Shown here: one piece after another, positions 14,650-32,046 of the stretch
Layout: each line of letters opens with the position of its first letter
How positions within the stretch are numbered: position 1 is the stretch's first letter
DNA from: an uncultured Acidimicrobiaceae bacterium
GTDB taxonomy: Bacteria; Actinomycetota; Acidimicrobiia; Acidimicrobiales; Ilumatobacteraceae
DNA length: 33,533 nt
Direction: 5' to 3'
Assembly (NCBI GenBank): GCA_903919455.1
Contig: CAIXIJ010000117.1
Coordinates: 1 to 33,533 of the forward strand
The notes under the pieces: model-generated
What the model saw: the letters and a program-made list of their open reading frames with translations, nothing else
What the model was told of the DNA's origin: nothing
Databases searched by the model: none
Made by a program: the position numbers and the translations under genes

Positions 14650-14717
14650 GAGACGGATCTAGTCTGAGGAGCCTCGGTGGTTGATCTGGAGGTCATTGAA
14701 CGGCGCGGACGAGCCTG

Positions 14718-15005
14718 TCAGCTGCTTGAACGTTCCGGCGTCATACGCTTCTGTGGCAACACACGAATCTGACTCGAGACCGGGTTGGTGAGGTTCGTTG
14801 GCGCCCGACGCTGCCCGCTGATTCGCTGCGCTGCTGACCGACTGGGTTCGTGGTCGGGAGTGTCGAAGGCGCGGACGACCGTTTCGCGCCCGTGGTCGGC
14901 GGGCGCGGGGATCGTCCAGCACCCGAGCACGGTGACGAGCGCGACGAGCAGCCCAAAGGCCAAACTCGAATGGAACTGTCGTGTTCCGCGTCGCCAAGTG
15001 GTCAT
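14718..15005 (-). CDS. small membrane protein coupled to the Rhs1 immunity candidate
   Basis: A 95-aa protein: a basic N-terminus (MTTWRRGTRQFHSS), one hydrophobic segment (about residues 15-33, LAFGLLVALVTVLGCW), then a polar Arg/Ser-rich tail. The segment may be a membrane anchor, or a lipoprotein-like signal with its Cys in LGC. Its ATG overlaps the stop of the immunity candidate (ATGA at 15002-15005), so the two are co-translated. It is not recognised. Its position as third gene of the Rhs1 toxin operon suggests an accessory or second immunity role, which is inference only. Confidence 0.55.
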   Translation of the reverse strand: MTTWRRGTRQFHSSLAFGLLVALVTVLGCWTIPAPADHGRETVVRAFDTPDHEPSRSAAQRISGQRRAPTNLTNPVSSQIRVLPQKRMTPERSSS

Positions 15006-15343
15006 TGAAGGGAGCCACCCACCGACGAGCCATCGGCCGGCTCCTCGCGCAGCAGGTTCCCCAGAAACGCCAGACCTCCCCTCCAATGCTGCGCCCCCCA
15101 GCGGGGTTCGCTCTCAACCTGCCCGGTCCGTATCGGAATGCACGAGCACTCCCAGGGACCCGACGAGAGTTCGTCGAGCAGACCCTTACGCACATGCAGC
15201 ACTAAGTGCGAATAGGCATCACCCAATGGTTCTGCTCCTCCTATCTCGCACAGGAGATCTTGGCCGGCCGTAGCAGTGACAACGACGGTTGCGGACTGGC
15301 CCGCGTACTCGAACGGCTCGAAGATGTCGAACCTTCCAACCAT
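15002..15343 (-). CDS. candidate immunity protein for Rhs1
   Basis: A 113-aa acidic protein with no signal peptide or membrane segment, thus cytosolic. It begins MVGRFDIFEPFEYAGQSATVVVTA and reads as mixed beta strands and helices; I cannot assign it to a named family. The ATG at 15343 lies 14 bp after the Rhs1 stop (15358-15360) on the same strand, the place where polymorphic-toxin immunity genes sit. An in-frame upstream ATG at 15391 would overlap the toxin by 34 nt and is less likely. It presumably binds and blocks the C-terminal tip of Rhs1 inside the cell, matching a toxin with a cytosolic target. Confidence 0.65.
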   Translation of the reverse strand: MVGRFDIFEPFEYAGQSATVVVTATAGQDLLCEIGGAEPLGDAYSHLVLHVRKGLLDELSSGPWECSCIPIRTGQVESEPRWGAQHWRGGLAFLGNLLREEPADGSSVGGSLQ

Positions 15344-15357
15344 CCCAGGTTCGGGGT

Positions 15358-18300
15358 TCACTTCGGCCGCCAGACGCAGACAACCCGGCATGGAACGTCG
15401 CCACTAGCGGTGCGCTGCATGCCGCCTCCTGGCATGTTGTAGTCAGGCTCGACTCTCGTCGGCGACGAGAATGTGCCTCTCGGAACCTCGAGATCTACTC
15501 GAACTTCCGGGGTTTGCGGCAGCGACAACCGCTGTCGCGCTCGAAGGGGATTCGAATTCGCCGAGTCGGTGACATAGTGGGTGCCCTCGCGACCGCCTCG
15601 TACGAGTTCCGACTCCTTCGTGGACTTCAACTCGGCTTCCGACATCCAACGCTGAACAACCTCGGTCTCTGTGGCTCGTGTCGGTGGGTTGAAGTGGGTC
15701 GTTGTGTGAGTGGTATCCGCGATACGAGCGGCGCTGCTGGTACGTGCAGCTCTGGGGCTGTCGCTGGCGTGTGCGATGTCGTGAACGGAGTCGCTGGCGT
15801 TGGTGAGGTCGTGAACGGCGTTGCTGCTGCGGGTGAGGTCGTGGATGGTGTCCCCAGCGCGGAAGGCGTCGACGGTGTTGTCGAGAGCCTTGGCAAACTT
15901 GGCGGCGTTGGCAGCAGTCCCGATGAACGGGATCGCCGCCGCGCACGAGAGCGCATCGCCGTGCGTGCAATCCCAGGCATCGATCGCGTCACCGAGGATC
16001 GGTACAAAGCCGAGTCCTGCCTTCACGGCTGGGAGAGCGGTCGCGACAGCGTTGGCGTCTCGCTCGAGTCGGGCGAGACCCCCGCTCATCGGGCCGCCTT
16101 GTTCGGCGTAGCAGTCCACCTGGATCCGTTCACCGAGTGCTGCACAGTCCACACCCGCGTAATCAGCTGCGCGTCCGTCTGGGTCCCACATGCCAATCGG
16201 GTCGGCGTTGGCGTACGTGTGCCGGTTGACCGACACAGGGGTCTGGAGGTCACCGAACACGCTGTCACGGCTGGTGAACCCGCCCGTGCCGGGCCGGTAC
16301 CAGCGCGCACCCATCCAAACGTCGCCGCTGGCGGGGTCCGTGTAGTCACCTTGGAATCCGAGCGGCATCGTCGTCCCGGTGTGAGCGACGGTGCTCCCGA
16401 ACGGGTCGTAGACGCTGGTCGCCGACACCGCGCCGCTGGCCGTGTGTGCGTAGCCGATGTCGCCGTGACGATCCCGACCGATCAGCACCGCCGGGTCGGT
16501 CCCCGACTGCGCGGCGATTGGCAGACCGCCGGGGCTGCGAGCGATTCGGGTGCCCCCCACAGCAACCGGGTCGATCTCGACGCCCGCATAGCCGAACGCG
16601 GTCGAGCCGGCCGTGGCGATGCGGTCGAGTGAGTCGTACGCGAAGGCGGTGGTCCCGTTGCTGACCAGTCGATCGAGCGAGTCGTAACCGTAGGTCGTCA
16701 CGCCACTCGTGTCGTTCGTTGATTGCAGCGTGCCCCTCGGAGTCCAGGCATAGCTGGTGGCCCCGGCGGTGATCAGCCGGTTGCGTGCGTCGTAGGTGGC
16801 GGACTGCCCCGCGTTGTTGACGAGGTTTCCAGCGTCGTCGTACGCGTACACGGCGACCGAGGCATCAGGCCGCGTCCAACCCGACAACCGCCCCGCATTG
16901 TCATAGCTGAACTGACTCACCCCGGCGGCGGGGTTCCCGGGGAGCGTGACCGTGCGCGATGTCACATGATCGTCGAGGTCATAGCCGTAGGTGTTGCCGG
17001 CGGTGAGGGCGTTCGTGTTGTCGCGCAGGTCGTCACTGAGCAGCCGGCCGAGATCGTCATAGGCGAGGTGACGGGCAGCACCGCCGCTGTAAGCGATATC
17101 GACGAGATGACCGCTGGCATCGAACGAGTTGGATCTACTCGTACCCGACACGGTGTCCGTCACCGTCGCCAGTTCGCTTCGGCTCGTCCAGCTGTAGCTA
17201 GTTGTGCCGGCGGCGTCCGTGCGTCCAACCATCCGCCCTGCCGGGTCGTAGGCGAAGGATGACTGGAACGCCGTTGGACCAGTCGTCGCGGTCAACAATC
17301 CACGGTCGTCGTAGACGAATCCGATGTCACCGGTCGGTGATCCCACAGCCGTTCTGTTCCCGGCAAGGTCATACCCGAACGAACGGGCGGCGGCGGCGTA
17401 CGCACCGGTTCCCGCCTCTTGGGTGAGCCGACCGAGCGCATCGAAGGTTCGCTCAATCGTGATGCCGCCCGGCTCGGTCGAGCGAACCGGCAGTCCACCG
17501 GAGTCGTAGTCCGACGTCCAGGTGCGGTCGGCGAGCGCCGGGTGTGCCCCGGTGGCTGGTTCGATGACCGAAGTCTGGAGTTCCCAGGCGTTGTAGGTGT
17601 ACTGGGTGGTGTTGCCCCGCCCATCGACCAGCGACGTCAGGTTCCCCGCCGCGTCGTAGCGGTACGCAGTGGTGATGGAGTGGTTGGCGCTGGTGGGTTG
17701 GGCAACGCTGGACAGGCGTGAGATCGGGTCGTACGAGTAGGTGGTGGTGAACTGTTGCGGTGTCGAGGAGGCGACACCGCGCGGGCTCGTTGAAGCAATC
17801 AGGTTCCCGGCACCGTCGTACGCGGCAGTCGCGGTGGTGAGCAGGGCGCCGGTGCTCGAGAAGTGACGTTCCGCAACTGCTCTGCCGGCCAGGTCGTATT
17901 CGGTGCTGGTGCGCCGGCCCTGTGGATCGGTGGACGTGATCTGTCGTCCGGCGACGTCGTAGGTGGCGCTGTACTCTGCGAGATCAGGCGCGATGGCCGT
18001 GATGGGTTCTGACGCGGCGGAGAACTCCCATCGGGTGGTGTCACCGGCAGGGTTCTGCTCGAGGGTGGTGTTGCCCAGGTCGTCGTAGTCGAAGGTCGTC
18101 GTGAACCGCTGCGGTGGTGCCGAGCCGTTGCGGACGACCGCGGTGTGGGTGCGTTGCCTCCCTGCGTCGTCGAAGGACGCCTCGGTGCGTGCGCCGCGCT
18201 GATCGACGACGGTGGTCGGGTTTCCGAGGTCGTCGTAGAACCAGGTGGTGGTGCCTGCAGCGCTGGAACCAACGGGCGGGTCGGTGCGGGTGATGACCCG

Positions 18301-23460: not shown

Positions 23461-23476
23461 ATGTTTAGGTGATTCT

Positions 23477-24526
23477 ATGAGGAGCTACACGAGAGCCAGC
23501 ACGCTCGATCCCGTTCCCGGCGACATCGTCAGCCTGCTGCGCCGGATCGACATCGCGGCCGGCGCCGAGGCGCGTCACGTCGACCAGCTTCCCCAACTGC
23601 TCGGCGCCCTGCAGGAACAGGCGCGCATCGAGTCGGTCACCGCCTCGAGCGCGATCGAAGGCGTGCATGTCGCCGAGGGACGGGTGCCCAACCTCGTGTC
23701 GGGCCACCCGCAACGCATTCGCAATCGCAGCGAGGCCGAGTTCGCCGGCTACAGCGCCGCGCTCGACTACCTCAACCAACAGGACCCCGGCGCACTCACC
23801 GTCGGACTCATCCTGCATCTGCATCGCCTGCTGTTCTCCTTCACCGATGGACGCGGCGGCCACTTCAAGGCCGAGGACAACCTGGTCATCGATCACCACC
23901 CCGACGGCAGCACCAGCACACGCTTCACCCCGGTCGGTTGGCAGGAGACACCGTTCTACATGGACGAGCTCGTCGCCCGCACCAACACCGCGCTCCGCGA
24001 CAACGAGACCCATCCGCTGCTCATCGTCGCCGCGTTCGCGCTCGACCTGCTCTGCATCCACCCGTTCGCCGACGGCAACGGCCGCGTCGCACGACTCGCC
24101 ACCACACACCTCCTCCAACGATCCGGCTACGGGGTCGGCAAGTACGTGAGCGTCGAACAACTCATCTACGAGACCAGGGACGAGTACTACCAAGCGCTCG
24201 CAGCATCGACGACAGGCTGGTTCGACGACGGCCAACACACCGTCTGGCCGTGGGCGGGCTATCTGCTCGGCCGACTCGACGCCGCCTACACGCGTTTCGG
24301 AACCAGGGTCGCCGCAGGGACCGGTGGCGGGACGAAGCAGGACCGGGTACGCGACTTCGTGCTGCTGCACGCCCCGACACCGTTCACGATCGCCGACATC
24401 CGCCGCGCGGTTCCAGGCACCAGCGACAACACCATCCGGCTCGTCCTCGCCGAACTGAGAGACCAAGGGCTGATCGCCAACGACGGCACCGGCCGCAGCG
24501 CGACTTGGCACCGAGTGGGTTCTTGA
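23477..24526 (+). CDS. Fic-domain protein (probable AMP-transferase), class II
   Basis: A 349-aa Fic/DOC protein. The catalytic motif HPFADGNGRVAR spans residues 195-206 and is fully canonical, with H195 as the base and R203 for phosphate contact, so it should transfer AMP from ATP to a hydroxyl of a target protein. An N-terminal inhibitory motif S57-x3-E61-G62 (SSAIEG) matches (S/T)xxxE(G/N), which makes it a self-inhibited class II Fic. Residues about 290-345 look like a winged helix (FTIADIRRAVPG, DNTIRLVLAELRDQGLI). The start ATG 23477 has AGGTGA 4 nt upstream. It is transcribed away from the integrase remnant and converges with the Rhs2 lipoprotein gene. Confidence 0.92.
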   Translation: MRSYTRASTLDPVPGDIVSLLRRIDIAAGAEARHVDQLPQLLGALQEQARIESVTASSAIEGVHVAEGRVPNLVSGHPQRIRNRSEAEFAGYSAALDYLNQQDPGALTVGLILHLHRLLFSFTDGRGGHFKAEDNLVIDHHPDGSTSTRFTPVGWQETPFYMDELVARTNTALRDNETHPLLIVAAFALDLLCIHPFADGNGRVARLATTHLLQRSGYGVGKYVSVEQLIYETRDEYYQALAASTTGWFDDGQHTVWPWAGYLLGRLDAAYTRFGTRVAAGTGGGTKQDRVRDFVLLHAPTPFTIADIRRAVPGTSDNTIRLVLAELRDQGLIANDGTGRSATWHRVGS

Positions 24527-24676: not shown

Positions 24677-24691
24677 GATCACGGGGTGATC
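24677..24691. terminator. short hairpin between fic and lipoprotein gene
   Basis: GATCAC (24677-24682) pairs with GTGATC (24686-24691) over a GGG loop, at the meeting point of the convergent fic and lipoprotein genes. The stem is only 6 bp with no T tract. The rest of 24527-24689 shows no gene. Confidence 0.25.
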
Positions 24692-25253
24692 ACGGCCATT
24701 CGCGAGAGTTCCAGCCCTGTGATCCATCGTCACACTTCGCGTCCACATCGACGTCACCCGAGGCCAGTCCAACTTCGCCAACCGGAATTGAGAATCTGGC
24801 CGCCAGCTGCTGGCCCCCAAGATACTCATTTCCTGCGGTGTCGAGGAACTCGAATGCGTAGTGGAACGGATCCTTCACTGATGTCAGATAGCTGCTGTCG
24901 CTACTAAACCTCTCTAGAGCGTCTCGATCAATGACTGACCGGACTTGGTTCGCTGACTGCGCGTCAACATCTAGTGGAACAAGCAACTCACTGGCCTTAA
25001 CCGGCACGATGAAGTCCACCTCAAGCACCCCGGATTGTTTCGGCTCCGTCGTTCCGTTCTCCACCAGCTTCATACGCATCGAAGAGATTTCAACACTGGT
25101 GCAGGGAAATGCCACTGCGTAGAACGCGCCATCAGAGGAGCGGTAGACACCGTGCTCGGAACGAAATGGTAACCGGCCGCCTGTGTCATGTCGTATACAC
25201 CCGACAAGGAGCAGACCAAGCAGAAGCCCAGCAAGCAAAGATGCCCGGCTCAT
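24690..25253 (-). CDS. lipoprotein, candidate immunity protein for Rhs2
   Basis: A 187-aa protein with a lipoprotein signal: MSRASLLAGLLLGLLLVGC, lipobox LVGC with C19 as the lipidated residue. The mature part is polar and rich in beta strands (VLEVDFIVPVKASELLVPL) and has no family I recognise. Its ATG overlaps the Rhs2 stop (ATGA at 25250-25253), so the pair is co-translated. Polymorphic-toxin immunity genes sit in this place, and a surface-anchored protein would protect against a peptidase acting outside the membrane. The gene has lower GC than its surroundings (31 of 60 bases at 24901-24960). Confidence 0.7.
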   Translation of the reverse strand: MSRASLLAGLLLGLLLVGCIRHDTGGRLPFRSEHGVYRSSDGAFYAVAFPCTSVEISSMRMKLVENGTTEPKQSGVLEVDFIVPVKASELLVPLDVDAQSANQVRSVIDRDALERFSSDSSYLTSVKDPFHYAFEFLDTAGNEYLGGQQLAARFSIPVGEVGLASGDVDVDAKCDDGSQGWNSREWP

Positions 25254-28200
25254 TTCTGGCCCTTAGCACAGTCGAAATAGTGACCGTCGACAAAGCCAGC
25301 GTCAGCTTCAAATCGATTACATTCGCCTGAGCGGACATACTGGCTGCCGTACAAGCCTATAAACGGGATTCCACCTGCAGCTGCCCATTGATAGGTATGC
25401 CGGGTTTCGTGTTGAAGAAGTCGCCAATCTTGAAGGGATTCCTGGTTCTCAGTAATGAAGGTGTTGCCGATGGTGGTGCCGCCCTTTGCCCAAACCTTGA
25501 ACGAGACAGACAGATCAATGGAAACATACTTCTGCTTGCCATCAGGCCCAACACCCACCGGTATTTGAAGAGTGCCCGAAAGGTGAACCGTTGCTCCTTT
25601 AGGTACAATGCAGACCGCCAGACCGGAGCCGGTCTCCGTGCAGTCGCCTCCGGCCCTTATCGCCAATTCATGAGCGGCCAATGTGAGGGGCGCATTGATT
25701 GCATTGCGTATGATGCTTCCCAGCGGAATATTCTCTAGGATTGTCGCGCCACAGATCACGGCTTGAACCGCATCACTGGCGCAACCCACCATTGCATTTA
25801 GAAGCTCCACACCCTGCTCGAGGACAAGTTCGCCGTTCTGGATCGCGCCCTTCACCGTGTCGCAGAGCAGTTGAAGAATTCCGCAGGCACTAGCTGACTC
25901 GGGAATCACCCACTGACCTGGGCACTCTTGGCCATACATACCGCAGCGTGAGTTCGGCAGCGTGGTTGATGGCGCAACCGCCTCCCAGACCATCTCCATT
26001 GTGCTGTCGGTGGTGAGCCCGGTTGGGTCGATATTGGTGAGGGGATTGTTATTGGCGTAATGGTAGGCGTCGGCCACGGTCACAGTCCCCATAACGCCTT
26101 GAAGAGCGTCACGGGAATTGAACCTGCCCACGTTCGGCTGGTAGTTCCGTGCTCGTAGGTAGAGATGGTTGTCAATCGTGATCTCACCGCGGTAGCCAAG
26201 ACGCAAGTCAAAGGTGTTGGTGCCCGCGGCGGTGCCGAATGCTGTGTAGGTGGCGCTGCGGGCGAGGGTGGTGGTGCCGGTCGTGGATACGGCGGAGCCG
26301 TATGCGTCGAGGCCCATCGGGCTGATGGTGAGGCCTGTTTGCGCGCTGATCCATCCTGCTGGGCCGATCGCCAGATCTGTCGCTATGCCGGTCGCGGCTG
26401 TGAATGCTGATGGTTGTGCGAGGCTGCTGGCGGTGTCCCACTCGATCTGACTGGCGGTGACCGTCGTGGTTGTCGCTGTTGTGACCGTGTTGTCGACGCT
26501 GCCGAGTAGTCCGTCCGGTCGGTAGCCGCGAAGCTGTGTGGTGGTGGTCGTGCCGTTCACTCGCGTGACGTCCGCCGGCCGTCCGGCCGCGTCGTAGGAG
26601 ATGTCGACTTTGTTGGTGGCTGTCACGGTTTGGTTGAGCATCCTGCCGGCATCGTCCCACGCGAATGTGGTCGCTCCGGTGAGCGGGGCTTCGCACAGTG
26701 GGCTGGCGGGCAGTGTCTTGGTGGTCGTCCAGCACAGCTGACCTGCCTGGTCGTAGACGTACTTCACTGCTGCCGCGGTGCCAACCTTCTCCGATGAACG
26801 CCTGCCGAGTGCGTCGTAGGTCCACACACTTGCGCTTCCGGTCGATGGGGTCGCTGACAGCAGTTGCGAGCCGGCGTCGTAGGCGAACGTGGTTGTGAGC
26901 GTGCCCGTCGCGTCCGACACAACCCTTCCCGTAGCGTCGTATCCAAGGGTCGTCGCTCGCGTCAGGCCCGGCACTGTCTCGGAGTAGCCGACCAGGCGAC
27001 CGTCGGTGTAGGCGCGGGAGCGGGTGCCACCACGCAACGTCTCGTTCGTCACTTGTCCATCAAGGTTGTACGTGTAGCCGGCGAGCGCGGCCGGATCGAT
27101 TGTCGGGTTGGTCTGTGACCAGTCGTCCATCACCAGTGTGTTGCTTCCTGCCGTTCGCGCCATGGTGACTCTGACGGTGCCGGTGGTGGTGACCGCAGGC
27201 GAGGCCGTGTATGACGACGTCCAAACGACCGGCTCCGGAACGGTCGCGACCCACACCTTCAGCTTCACAGAGGCTCCCACGACCTGGAGACGCAGCCGTG
27301 TCGCGCTCGTGGTCGGCGGCACCGGCACTGACCCGAGCGTCGTGGTCGTGGAGCCGATCTTGCGGTACACGGTTGCGGTCGAGCCGTCGGAGTTGATCTC
27401 GACCCGGTAGTGGTTGGTGGTCGTGTATTTGGCGTACACGGTCAGCTTCGACGAAGTGGCTGCGTCGGCTGTAGCGAACCGGTAGGTCAGCGACACGTCA
27501 TGATCCTGGGCGGCCGCGATCTTCGAGGTCTCTGTCATTGCCGAGGTTGCGGTGTCCGGCACGGTCAGCCTGAGTGCGTTGTCACCGATGGTTGCGGTGG
27601 CGCCGGCGACAGCTGTCGGGGTCCATTTCGTCGTCACCGCCGGTTGCCCATCGGGTTGGGTGAAGCTGTCCGCCAACAGTTCACCGGGCGTGATCGACGC
27701 CAACTGGCCGGCCGGGTTGTACGCGTAACGGATCGTGTTGCCGTTCGGGTAGCTCATCGAGGTACGCCGTCCCGCGACGTCGTAGCGGTACGAAGTGACT
27801 TGTGCGTAATTGGTCACGGATGAGACATCACCGGCGGCCGTGTATGTGTACTGGGCCGATCCGTCGGGGCCGTCGATCGAAGTCACGCGTCCGGCCGAGT
27901 CATAGGTGTAGGTCGTCGTCCCTGCAGCGGTGATCCTCGTCGCCAAGGTGCCGTCAGGGTTGTAGGTGTTGTTCGCGAATGTCCCTGATGGGTCGGTGGT
28001 TGATGCGACTCGCCCTGCTGCGTCGTAGCCGAACGCGCTGACACGGCCCAGGGGGTCGCTGCTGGACACCAACTGGTTCGCGGCGTCGTACACCCAGGAA
28101 TCGACACCACCCAGAGCGTTTGTTCGCGAGGTCAGGTTGCCTCGCTCGTCGTAGCCGAACGAGGTCAGATGACCCAATGCGTCGGTCACCGACGCAACGG

Positions 28201-31200
28201 TGCCCTCGGGGTTGTAGACGTAGGTGACAGCACCCTCGTCACCCACCTTGTGGGTGTGCAGTTCACCGCGGAGAGTATACGAGTTGACGGTGACGACACC
28301 GGCCGGGTCGGTCGAGGTCAGCACTCGGCCCGCAGCATCGTAGGTGTAGGCGACGACCAGTCCCCCTGGCGAGGTGACGGTCACCGGCTGTGACTCGTTG
28401 TTGAACACCGTCGTCGTGACTCGTCCGCCGGGGGCCGACACCGTCGCCCTCCTCCCGGCGAGGTCGTACCCGTAGCTCGTGGTCAAGCCTGCGGGATCGG
28501 TCACCGACGCGACCCGTCCACCGGGCGTGTACGACGTCGTCGTCACACCACCTCGAGGGTCGGTCAGTGACGTCGTGCGGCCAAGGGCGTCATAGGCGTA
28601 CACCGTCGACCCCGTTGGCGCATCGGTCGACTCGACACGGCCATGAGTGTCGTAGTTCGTCGTCGTCACCCTGCCCACAGCATCGACTGTCGAAGCCACC
28701 CGGCCAGCACCGTCGTAGTTGGTGTGCGTCACCCCCGCGGCCGGGTCCGTCACAGAGGTTGTCCGACCTTCCACGTCGTAGTCGTAGCCGGTGGTTCGCG
28801 CCAGCGGGTCCGACGTCTCCACCACCCGATTCAGCGTTGAATGGACGGTCGCAGAGCTCGCTCCACCGGGCGACACGACTTCGACGACCTGACCATTGGT
28901 GTCGTACACATACGACGTCTCGTGACCCGCCGGATCGGCCGACGTCGCCAACTGTCCCGCAGCGTCATACGTGTTCGTGGTGACCGCGCCCGTCGCGTCG
29001 GTGACGGTCAACACTCGACCTGCGGCATCGTAGGTGTACGAAGTCACGCCACCATCGGCAGCCGTGCTCGACGCCAAGCGACCGTTGGACGAGTACGACC
29101 AGCTGGTCACTCGCCCTGAGGGCGATGTGGTCGACAGCCGTCGACCTTGCCCGTCGTACGCGAAGTGGGTCACGTTGCCAACGCCGTCGGTCGAGGTCAA
29201 CATTCGGCGTTGCCCGTCGTAGGTGTACGACGTCGTGACGCCATCGGCATCAGTGGTCGACATCGTCAGTCCGTCCACCACGTCGTACGTCGTGGTGTGC
29301 GTCAACGCATCGGTCACCGACGAGGGGGAGCGTTCGTCGTTCTCGTAGGCGTAGGTCGTGACCGCACCCCACGGATCGGTCGCGGACACCAACCGATTCG
29401 ACGTGTCGTACACGTAGCTCGACGTGCCAACACCCGCTTGCGTGGTCGACAGGACGTTGTCGTTCGAGTCGTAGGTGGCCGATGACTCGCTGTCATCGCG
29501 GGCGGTGGCGCCGACCAGGTTGCCCCGAGCGTCGTAGAACCGTTCCGTCGAGTTCCCGAACGGATCGGTGATCGCCAGCACCTTGCCATGCTCATCGTGG
29601 TGATATTGGACGACCTCACCGGTCAGGGAGTGGGTGACCTCGGTGACGGCCTCGGAGTCCAAGTAGGTGAACGACGTGACACCACCGTTCGGGGCGGTCT
29701 GGCTGACGACTCGTCCAACGCTGTCGTAGGTGTTCGCCTCGAGCACCACCCCTGACGGGTCGACCATGGTGGCCAGCAGTCCGCCGCTGGTGTAAGTGAT
29801 CGTCGAGGTCGCGCCGAACTCGTCGGTCACCGACGAAAGCAGGTCGTTTGTGTCGTAGAGAAATGACACTGACCGCCCCGAGCTGGTCGACACTCCAGCC
29901 AGGCGACCATTCGGGCCGTAGGTGAACAACAAGGAGGGTCCGGTGGACGCGGTCACCGTCCACAACCGGCCGGCACCGTCATAGACAGACTGTGCCGACT
30001 GCCCATCCCAACGGGTCTGCTCGATCAGACGACCGGCCGTGTCGAAACGATCAACACTTCCATCGCGATGCTCGAGGCGAAGCATCGCTGACGCGCCGCC
30101 ACCTACTGGCGGCGACGGGTCGACCACCAACGAATCCGAACTTCCGTCGGGTGTGACGAATCCGCCCGCACCATCGGGAGCGAAACGCAATGGCGTTCCG
30201 TCCGGCAACGACACCACCATGACATCACCATCGGCGTCGACGCGAGGCCCGACAGCGACCTGCCAGCGTGGTCCGCTGGTCGACACATACGCCGACCTGC
30301 CGTTGTAGGCCCGGACCACCGTCAACCCGAACGCCTCACCCGTCAGGTCCACTTCGACATCGGTGAGGTTCCCCGTTGCCGTGTCGACCGGGTCGGCGAC
30401 CGTGGTTTGGCCGGGGCCGCTTCTCCCGACCCGGTAGGCCGGCGGATCGACCAGCGGTGTGGCGTCGCGATCAAGGAACCGTGCCAACTGTGGGGTCTGT
30501 TCACCGGTCCAGGTGATCCACGACACCATCGGTTGACCGCGATCGTTCATCACGAACGACACCGGCGACTCCAACGCCCAGCCAGTCGGCAGAGCACCGA
30601 CGCCGTTCACTGCGAACGAAGTGTCATCCCTTCCGGAGCTTGTCAGACGGCGCAACGACATCGGCAACATGTCGATGTCGCCCGCCCCGAACCGCAGGTA
30701 GTAGAGCGAGCCGCTTGGCCCGACGAGCAGGTTGTCGAGTTCGCCCAGCGGCTTGACTGAGTCCGTGCCTGTCAGCGTCCGTGACGGTCGGCTCGTGTCG
30801 GCCGCCCCGTCGGAAGTGAAGTAGCTGAGCTGGTTGAGCCACCGGCCAGCTGTCGGATCCCATTCCTCAGCTACAGCGATCAGCCCGCTGTCCGACGAGC
30901 GGTACAACACACGCGTGTCGTAGGCGACATTGATCTGGCTAAACCCGGAGTCGACCGAACCGTTCGGCATCAGCCGGCGCACACGCCACTGCACTGCGCT
31001 GGTGGAACTGCGCTCGAGGATCAGCGAACGGCCGTCGGAACGCTCCCCAAGAACGTCGACTGCAAACCCAGTGGTGGTGCGCCAACCGTCGCCATCGAAC
31101 GTTGCGTCTGGTGTGCCATTCGAGGTAACCGCCCCGATGAACCCCGTGTAGCTGCAGGTCGAGCCACACGAAAATTGGCTTCCAGAAACGAGAATCCTGC

Positions 31201-31714
31201 CTCCGAGCCCTAAGACAATTCGAGGAGTGAACTCAGCAGTCGCCGAGGGTGGGCTGAGTGTTGCGACCCCGGATGTCCCGAAACCGGCGACATCCACAGC
31301 TCCGTCGCCGAGCAATCGAATGAGCGCTGCCTCTGTGCCAAACCCATTTCGTACGAGAAGGAGCACGCCATCGTTCTGCAGACCCAACGCAGCGACCGGA
31401 TACACCGTGGCACCCGCAGTGAGAGCGACAATGTCGACTTGCCCGTCGCCACCCCAAGAAAGATCGGGGTCGCCGTGATCCGTCAACCGCCGAACGGACA
31501 CCCCACCGGTCCCAGAATCAACAAGAAAGACCTTGCCAAGCTGGCCGGCGGCGAGGACCTCACCCTGAGTCTGCACCACACCGGCGGTTCCCCACAAGGA
31601 GTCCAGCACAGCCGGAGCCGCCATCGTCACTGCGGACTGCGACACCACGAAACCGCCCGCCGCCAAACACCACGCTGCGCTGATCGCCAGAACCCGTCGA
31701 ACCAGTCGTCGCAT
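25250..31714 (-). CDS. Rhs2: secreted Rhs/YD-repeat polymorphic toxin, HExxH zincin tip
   Basis: A 2154-aa protein. It starts at ATG 31714, where GGAGG lies 5 nt upstream and a signal peptide begins (MRRLVRRVLAISAAWCLAAGG); the longer in-frame start at 31846 has neither. About residues 35-400 are delta-60-like (DUF5122) repeats (HGDPDLSWGGDGQ, DVAGFGTSG, PDATFDGDGW). About 440-600 is DUF6531-like (DPVDTATGNLTDVEVDL), then YD repeats, interrupted at about 1341-1538 by a lectin/laminin-G-like insert. The Rhs core is about 1835-1900 (LRARNYQPNVGRFNSRD). The 255-residue tip contains H2102-E-T-R-H2106, a zinc metallopeptidase motif, with E2136 (FEADAG) as a candidate third ligand. A lipoprotein immunity candidate follows. 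Confidence 0.88.
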   Translation of the reverse strand: MRRLVRRVLAISAAWCLAAGGFVVSQSAVTMAAPAVLDSLWGTAGVVQTQGEVLAAGQLGKVFLVDSGTGGVSVRRLTDHGDPDLSWGGDGQVDIVALTAGATVYPVAALGLQNDGVLLLVRNGFGTEAALIRLLGDGAVDVAGFGTSGVATLSPPSATAEFTPRIVLGLGGRILVSGSQFSCGSTCSYTGFIGAVTSNGTPDATFDGDGWRTTTGFAVDVLGERSDGRSLILERSSTSAVQWRVRRLMPNGSVDSGFSQINVAYDTRVLYRSSDSGLIAVAEEWDPTAGRWLNQLSYFTSDGAADTSRPSRTLTGTDSVKPLGELDNLLVGPSGSLYYLRFGAGDIDMLPMSLRRLTSSGRDDTSFAVNGVGALPTGWALESPVSFVMNDRGQPMVSWITWTGEQTPQLARFLDRDATPLVDPPAYRVGRSGPGQTTVADPVDTATGNLTDVEVDLTGEAFGLTVVRAYNGRSAYVSTSGPRWQVAVGPRVDADGDVMVVSLPDGTPLRFAPDGAGGFVTPDGSSDSLVVDPSPPVGGGASAMLRLEHRDGSVDRFDTAGRLIEQTRWDGQSAQSVYDGAGRLWTVTASTGPSLLFTYGPNGRLAGVSTSSGRSVSFLYDTNDLLSSVTDEFGATSTITYTSGGLLATMVDPSGVVLEANTYDSVGRVVSQTAPNGGVTSFTYLDSEAVTEVTHSLTGEVVQYHHDEHGKVLAITDPFGNSTERFYDARGNLVGATARDDSESSATYDSNDNVLSTTQAGVGTSSYVYDTSNRLVSATDPWGAVTTYAYENDERSPSSVTDALTHTTTYDVVDGLTMSTTDADGVTTSYTYDGQRRMLTSTDGVGNVTHFAYDGQGRRLSTTSPSGRVTSWSYSSNGRLASSTAADGGVTSYTYDAAGRVLTVTDATGAVTTNTYDAAGQLATSADPAGHETSYVYDTNGQVVEVVSPGGASSATVHSTLNRVVETSDPLARTTGYDYDVEGRTTSVTDPAAGVTHTNYDGAGRVASTVDAVGRVTTTNYDTHGRVESTDAPTGSTVYAYDALGRTTSLTDPRGGVTTTSYTPGGRVASVTDPAGLTTSYGYDLAGRRATVSAPGGRVTTTVFNNESQPVTVTSPGGLVVAYTYDAAGRVLTSTDPAGVVTVNSYTLRGELHTHKVGDEGAVTYVYNPEGTVASVTDALGHLTSFGYDERGNLTSRTNALGGVDSWVYDAANQLVSSSDPLGRVSAFGYDAAGRVASTTDPSGTFANNTYNPDGTLATRITAAGTTTYTYDSAGRVTSIDGPDGSAQYTYTAAGDVSSVTNYAQVTSYRYDVAGRRTSMSYPNGNTIRYAYNPAGQLASITPGELLADSFTQPDGQPAVTTKWTPTAVAGATATIGDNALRLTVPDTATSAMTETSKIAAAQDHDVSLTYRFATADAATSSKLTVYAKYTTTNHYRVEINSDGSTATVYRKIGSTTTTLGSVPVPPTTSATRLRLQVVGASVKLKVWVATVPEPVVWTSSYTASPAVTTTGTVRVTMARTAGSNTLVMDDWSQTNPTIDPAALAGYTYNLDGQVTNETLRGGTRSRAYTDGRLVGYSETVPGLTRATTLGYDATGRVVSDATGTLTTTFAYDAGSQLLSATPSTGSASVWTYDALGRRSSEKVGTAAAVKYVYDQAGQLCWTTTKTLPASPLCEAPLTGATTFAWDDAGRMLNQTVTATNKVDISYDAAGRPADVTRVNGTTTTTQLRGYRPDGLLGSVDNTVTTATTTTVTASQIEWDTASSLAQPSAFTAATGIATDLAIGPAGWISAQTGLTISPMGLDAYGSAVSTTGTTTLARSATYTAFGTAAGTNTFDLRLGYRGEITIDNHLYLRARNYQPNVGRFNSRDALQGVMGTVTVADAYHYANNNPLTNIDPTGLTTDSTMEMVWEAVAPSTTLPNSRCGMYGQECPGQWVIPESASACGILQLLCDTVKGAIQNGELVLEQGVELLNAMVGCASDAVQAVICGATILENIPLGSIIRNAINAPLTLAAHELAIRAGGDCTETGSGLAVCIVPKGATVHLSGTLQIPVGVGPDGKQKYVSIDLSVSFKVWAKGGTTIGNTFITENQESLQDWRLLQHETRHTYQWAAAGGIPFIGLYGSQYVRSGECNRFEADAGFVDGHYFDCAKGQK
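26200..29960 (-). repeat. YD-repeat region of Rhs2 (with insert 27100-27690)
   Basis: Tyrosine-aspartate repeats about every 20 residues (for example TYTYDAAGRVLTVTD) cover this stretch and appear on the plus strand as a periodic GTCGTA. The run is broken at 27100-27690 by a non-YD insert. Confidence 0.85.
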
Positions 31715-32046
31715 CGTGACCTCCGTCGCTCGCAGTGGCGCTCCCACTCCCGGCGAACATAGTCCACATTCACAGTCAACAATGTCAGTTCCCCGTGAAA
31801 CAGCAATCTTGCTGAATTCGCCCGGTCTTTCCGACATTCGGCGCACAATTCATAGCCCAAGGAGTGACCATCGACCACTAAACGTGATGAATGATGAGGC
31901 ACTGCAGGATCCAAACTCACGATACTGGTACCCACACACGGATTGCCCGCCGCCGAGTGACACAATCATTATCAAGAGTTGGTCGATCGATGATTCGCGC
32001 AAACCGGGCTTGAATGCCCGCAGACCGATGCCCTGAACTTTCAGCA
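31715..32046 (-). promoter_or_regulatory. upstream region of Rhs2
   Basis: These 332 bp between the relaxase stop and the Rhs2 start are AT-richer than the genes on either side. A candidate -10 TATGTT lies at 31756-31761 (minus strand), 41 bp before the ATG, giving a 5' leader with the ribosome binding site GGAGG at 31720-31724. CTGAACTTTCAG at 32033-32044 is a small palindrome-like repeat just after the relaxase stop. A 65-codon frame starting at GTG 32047 lies here but shows no recognisable features. Confidence 0.4.

Follow-up and report, generated by a model that had tools for sequence, protein, structure and literature searches.

Rhs2, encoded in an uncultured Acidimicrobiaceae bacterium (Ilumatobacteraceae; GCA_903919455.1, contig CAIXIJ010000117.1), is probably an exported Rhs toxin whose C-terminal tip is a gluzincin acting at the outer membrane face, with an overlapping gene for a lipoprotein immunity protein, the two being mobile as one cassette. 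The evidence comes from the 33,533-nt stretch of DNA analysed (hereafter the window) and from related loci, among which a lipoprotein partner accompanies most toxin-borne zincins.

Architecture of Rhs2 and its downstream gene

Residue 1 of Rhs2 is the Met codon at 31714, which precedes a stretch that by eye resembles a signal peptide; the open frame continues 44 codons upstream to a GTG at 31846. Pfam matches RHS_repeat (429 bits) and DUF6531 (35.9 bits) and the core matches TIGR03696 (53.2 bits; cut-off 32.5), while a delta-60 match (34.6 bits) lies below its cut-off of 76.5. The protein has the make-up of an Rhs polymorphic toxin: RHS/YD repeats, then an Rhs-associated core and, behind the core, a variable tip at the C terminus. 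The relevant features are as follows.

25250..31714, minus strand: Rhs2 (open reading frame and translation), in the order signal-peptide-like N terminus (by eye), weak delta-60 repeats, DUF6531, RHS/YD repeats, Rhs core, C-terminal tip
25253..26014, minus strand: variable tip of Rhs2, 254 aa, C-terminal to the Rhs core (core match stops at NIDPTGL, 26015-26035)
25253..25672, minus strand: zincin-like domain, 140 aa (alignments A2 and A9; model pLDDT 76.3, pTM 0.63)
25397..25411, minus strand: HETRH, two predicted Zn ligands and predicted catalytic Glu (H, E, H invariant in 9/9)
25307..25309, minus strand: Glu of FEADAG, predicted third Zn ligand (invariant in 9/9; model helix 120-126)
25260..25264, minus strand: AAGGG, possible ribosome-binding site of the lipoprotein gene, 6 nt before its ATG (by eye)
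25250..25253, minus strand: ATGA, the 4 bp shared by the Rhs2 stop and the lipoprotein ATG (sequence)
24690..25253, minus strand: lipoprotein, immunity candidate, 187 aa (lipobox LLVGC, Cys19; Cys51 and Cys174; homologue in L008)
25197..25199, minus strand: lipobox Cys19 codon (by position)
25101..25103, minus strand: Cys51 codon, first Cys of a predicted disulfide pair (mature position 33; 123 residues to the third Cys)
24732..24734, minus strand: Cys174 codon, second Cys of the predicted pair (mature position 156)

The first-pass annotation had read an overlap of the Rhs2 stop with the start of a lipoprotein gene and a clear lipobox in its product, and both are there: the overlap is the ATGA, and LLVGC ends at residue 19, after a hydrophobic stretch. 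With a signal peptide and a lipobox ending in Cys, the product is a predicted bacterial lipoprotein. G+C content is 54-56% in the tip and lipoprotein gene vs 64% across the two-Rhs region, a difference consistent with cassette exchange. Neither the tip nor the lipoprotein has a Pfam or NCBIfam match above cut-off.

The same annotation held that each Rhs module of the island pairs its toxin with an immunity candidate in the matching compartment. As worded for both modules this is not exact: it is supported for Rhs2 and only weakly backed for Rhs1, where the tip matches TreTu_C below cut-off (16.5 vs 27 bits) and the candidate at 15002-15391 shows by eye no signal or transmembrane segment. That candidate fits better than ORF 14659-15195, which was rejected as the Rhs1 immunity gene for its implausible translation; ORF 23465-24511 (minus strand), antisense to a Fic gene, was also rejected.

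The tip of Rhs2 resembles a zincin

HETRH and FEADAG (25295-25312, minus strand) begin at Rhs2 residues 2102 and 2135, with the Glu 30 residues past the second His, as first annotated. Alignment A2, of nine divergent sequences including that of the window, has invariant T, G, H, E, H, Q, Y, E, A, Y and C, so the motif is more than a chance occurrence. No HExxH was found among 75 evaluable other Rhs tips of the same order, two rows already known as zincins having been excluded beforehand. All nine A2 members carry HExxHxxQ...E, the PVC-metallopeptidase signature as given in PMC3482391.

Profile comparison linked the zincin tips to three stand-alone families at ~97-99% (A2 vs A11, 96.9%). One A11 member, the stand-alone relative L022, exceeds the Pfam eCIS_core cut-off (26.9 bits vs 22), which ties the Rhs2 tip to eCIS_core through A11; a stand-alone viral-contig relative, L213, does so as well (24.5 bits vs 22). 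Direct scores of the tip against PF13699 (eCIS_core/DUF4157) were 13.0 and 12.1 bits, not reaching the gathering score of 22, and PF13699 was listed for 1/9 A2 members (best E 0.2). Tox-MPTase4 (PF15640) had no match in the window tip, was listed for 1/9 A2 members (best E 0.052) and scored 12.9 bits vs a cut-off of 25 in a longer stretch of L011.

The 140-residue tip model (pLDDT 76.3) has strands, the HExxH helix (83-99), a further helix and the Glu helix (120-126), and as a prediction it shows a zincin-like order of elements; an earlier 210-aa model from A4 (pLDDT 51) was set aside. Foldseek gave no match to the PDB at E <= 0.001. The two top VIA-align rows, both weak, are zincins: ArdC (Z 2.8, rmsd 4.3 over 84) and aminopeptidase A (Z 2.4, rmsd 3.9 over 83). 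The best BFVD match was A0A5Q2W6E3, an entry without a name (E 0.022, prob 1.00, rmsd 2.2 over 68 columns, TM 0.42/0.51). Searching PDB sequences with the tip and with A2, A11 and A10 turned up no credible relative, and the A2 profile had no metallopeptidase match. The conserved signature, the profile links and the modelled order of elements agree with the initial assignment of the tip as zincin-like.

Further scans yielded stand-alone domains. In viral contigs, A3, A8 and A6 gave no relative, while A5 gave one locus and A7 five, all small stand-alone zincins; the single hit from a plasmid collection, in Nonomuraea, was likewise a stand-alone zincin, and a genome-contig scan gave three loci taken as repeats of genomes already in the set.

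Lipoprotein partners accompany most toxin-borne zincins

The matches for which a locus was retrieved were sorted by eye into 18 toxin-context and 51 stand-alone zincins, 48 of the latter being evaluable (L070, L085 and L090 were skipped); matches to the Rhs core only (L017-L019, L028-L031), L074 (contig end) and repeated loci were excluded. Controls came from the first 91 listed Rhs rows of the order, of which 80 were fetched (the 11 left out were two known zincins, three from the own genome and six others) and 75 kept after the script dropped L166, L173, L191, L201 and L204. A superseded control script had flagged 9/77 complete loci, some of them plainly transmembrane proteins, and 1/25 with a strict frame score.

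By one rule, a lipoprotein partner was present in 13/18 toxin-context zincins vs 6/75 other Rhs tips (p 6e-8) and 1/48 stand-alone zincins (p 5e-9). Counting by eye on both sides, which adds the lipoprotein-like control partners of L144, L163 and L174, gave 14/18 vs 9/75 (p 1e-7). Four of the 18 (L003, L008, L011, L069) have no toxin body in frame; a strict, de-duplicated set with a visible toxin body gave 9/13 (p 5e-6). A later search in another order found a partner in 8/8 loci whose open frame runs for at least 400 aa ahead of the motif vs 1/13 with less, the limit having been chosen after the data were seen and measuring open frame rather than gene (the gene of L232 probably begins inside that frame); with alike loci merged the count was 5/5 (p 7e-4). 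L012 and L236 were scored as lipoprotein neighbours by eye. These counts support the conclusion that the lipoprotein partner tracks the toxin-borne zincin, not Rhs proteins generally and not the zincin domain alone, and they answer the first-pass call for other tips with a lipoprotein next to them.

Homologous tips lacking such a partner, which that annotation had counted against the pairing, also turned up among the five loci failing the rule, although most loci have one. L012 has a lipoprotein by eye; the partner of L014 is a transmembrane-anchored ectodomain protein whose paired Cys are spaced by 107, and that of L068 has transmembrane segments; no partner was seen in L060, which adjoins a gene that is contractile-injection-like by eye, or in L069. 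As a rule, then, though not without exception, the partner is anchored in the membrane and extracytoplasmic.

The pair occurs on Rhs bodies in L225 (by eye) and L236 (RHS_repeat, 48.7 bits) and on a type VII body in L044 (EspA_EspE, 76 bits vs a cut-off of 27), and a WxG motif was seen by eye in L224, L226, L227, L230 and L231. Because Pfam names no domain in L224, L226, L227 and L011, and its matches in L015 and L232 stay below cut-off, the toxin bodies of these loci are by-eye calls.

This distribution bears on whether the zincin could instead process the Rhs protein itself, as a releasing peptidase, with the lipoprotein merely tethering or folding it at the cell surface. According to Zhang et al. 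2012 (PMC3482391), most PVC-metallopeptidase versions release toxins, and Neisseria MafA, a lipobox protein adjoining polymorphic toxins, is proposed as a surface anchor. We nevertheless regard this as unlikely: the zincin is the extreme C terminus, with nothing after it to release, and C-terminal PVC versions are given a likely toxin role in that same text. The partner, moreover, follows the tip rather than the body, being rare after other Rhs tips yet present with type VII toxins of the same tip, and MafA is upstream and invariant whereas the present partners are downstream and highly divergent.

A probable partner family, mostly with one cysteine layout

Eighteen of the lipoproteins (21 domains) share a layout of a lipid Cys, a Cys at 26-36 and a last Cys 106-133 further on, near the C terminus; two domains stand in tandem in L044, L231 and L232. 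Four partners lack it: L006, L011, L098 and L003, a PD40 beta-propeller that is possibly a mere neighbour. In a permutation of Cys spacing, 0 of 200,000 random placements equalled the 10-residue range of eight partners, a descriptive result because those eight were picked for that layout.

Profiles leaving out one group at a time, with open frames from the fetched loci (not lipoproteins) as decoys, placed the held-out member above all 3484 decoys in 9/14 groups. Recovery was strong (E 3e-9 or better) only for type VII-type partners and the like (L015, L044/L231, the L224 group, L232, L238); L008, L012, L052 and L225 ranked first at E 0.016-0.14, L038 and L236 had one decoy above them, and L005, L013 and L014 were not recovered. 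A first profile test, redone with more sequences, had missed most members, with only L052 ranking first of 11. The window lipoprotein had 98 decoys above it and joins the family only through L008, where a homologue 36% identical to it adjoins a related tip; a profile of these two, run against 248 genomes, retrieved only the window itself and two matches inside large frames (E 0.006-0.007). The best reading is that the partners form an immunity family which Pfam and NCBIfam lack.

Chance placement of an unrelated lipoprotein after the tip is highly improbable, to our judgement the least likely account. It draws on the control tips that also precede a lipoprotein, whether counted by rule or with the three by-eye cases, and on the common PD40 type of the L003 partner. 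Against it stand the strength of the association and its later confirmation, the stop/start overlap, the common Cys spacing and the partial profile homology; in addition, a second Rhs tip in the same genome (HEMVHVAQW) is overlapped by a different lipoprotein.

Comparison with known systems

The closest known system is VgrG2bC-ter-PA0261 (Tpe1-Tpi1), an experimentally tested T6SS pair in which a DUF4157 gluzincin exerts its toxicity in the periplasm and the immunity protein is targeted to the envelope; for its relatives, immunity proteins that are lipoproteins or transmembrane-anchored are predicted (Wood et al. 2019, PMC6899460). Both have a C-terminal HExxH gluzincin with Glu as third ligand (predicted here) and a small gene just downstream, whose product is sent to the envelope by signal peptide, lipobox or transmembrane anchor; in the window this is the LLVGC protein, a putative immunity protein, and most related loci have the like. 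In both, the immunity proteins have partly conserved Cys and little sequence identity, a likeness of features. Tpe1-Tpi1, however, is a proteobacterial T6SS pair, whereas the present tips sit on actinobacterial Rhs and type VII bodies and fall below the PF13699 cut-off; eCIS_core/PVC-metallopeptidases share HExxHxxQ...E with the Rhs2 tip. This T6SS precedent, and the tie of the partner to toxin-borne zincins, favour the first-pass suggestion that a surface lipoprotein suits an outer-face peptidase.

Other systems are more distant. With TslA-TilA (PMC10730906), too, a Gram-positive bacterium neutralises an extracellular toxin by means of an immunity lipoprotein, but the toxin is a T7SS lipase with reverse domain order and the lipoprotein a DUF576 protein. 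TelC-TipC (T7SS, PMC6193138) has a membrane-anchored immunity domain facing the wall zone, but its toxin is a lipid II phosphatase and its anchor transmembrane, as in L014. Imm65/Tox-JAB-1 (PMC3482391), a polymorphic toxin with lipoprotein immunity, is alike by type and has a JAB domain toxin; the paper names Imm65 as the only apparent lipoprotein in its immunity collection. The best reading is an actinobacterial counterpart of Tpe1-Tpi1, on Rhs and type VII bodies.

Rhs toxins are generally believed to reach the cytoplasm, which counts in favour of a toxin that is taken up and acts there, the anchored lipoprotein barring entry at the surface rather than inhibiting the peptidase. Prevention of uptake has been suggested for some membrane immunity proteins (Zhang et al., PMC3482391). 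We think this very unlikely, as the lipoprotein goes with the peptidase tip under any delivery body, and VgrG2bC-ter is toxic in the periplasm and harmless in the cytoplasm (PMC6899460).

Proposed mechanism and significance

In the preferred reading, Rhs2 would be an exported Rhs polymorphic toxin and its tip a compact gluzincin-type zinc metallopeptidase that works on the outside of the target cell's membrane or within the wall zone. The overlapping gene would encode its immunity protein, lipid-anchored at the outer face and probably a disulfide-closed domain, which would bind and block the peptidase at its place of action and so guard the producer, which exports the toxin past that same face, and its kin. 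The analysis documents the conserved motifs, the gene order, the statistical tie to toxin context, the lipobox, the Cys spacing, partial profile homology between partners and a zincin-like model; for this pair we infer Zn binding, proteolysis, the site of action and inhibition by binding. Tip and lipoprotein would travel as one cassette among actinobacterial Rhs proteins and type VII (ESX/WXG-type) toxins.

A more speculative and rather improbable reading is that these are actinobacterial protease toxins of one family, exchanged between Rhs and type VII bodies and acting outside the cytoplasm, where they would strip away surface lipoproteins or disable them; the immunity lipoprotein would then be a disulfide-closed domain (tandem in some loci) fixed among the victims, blocking the enzyme or serving as an uncleavable decoy.

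The 2012 survey (PMC3482391) treated lipoprotein immunity as an exception, with Imm65 its single case. In the present set, one predicted toxin fold recurs across actinobacteria on two delivery bodies, and most loci have one partner layout. The partners suggest an immunity family that neither Pfam nor NCBIfam models, and one whose predicted disulfide can be tested. A simple rule emerges, that a toxin-borne zincin goes with an anchored outer partner, so that the site of action may be guessed from the immunity gene, and the periplasmic protease pair known from T6SS would gain a counterpart in Gram-positive-type bacteria.

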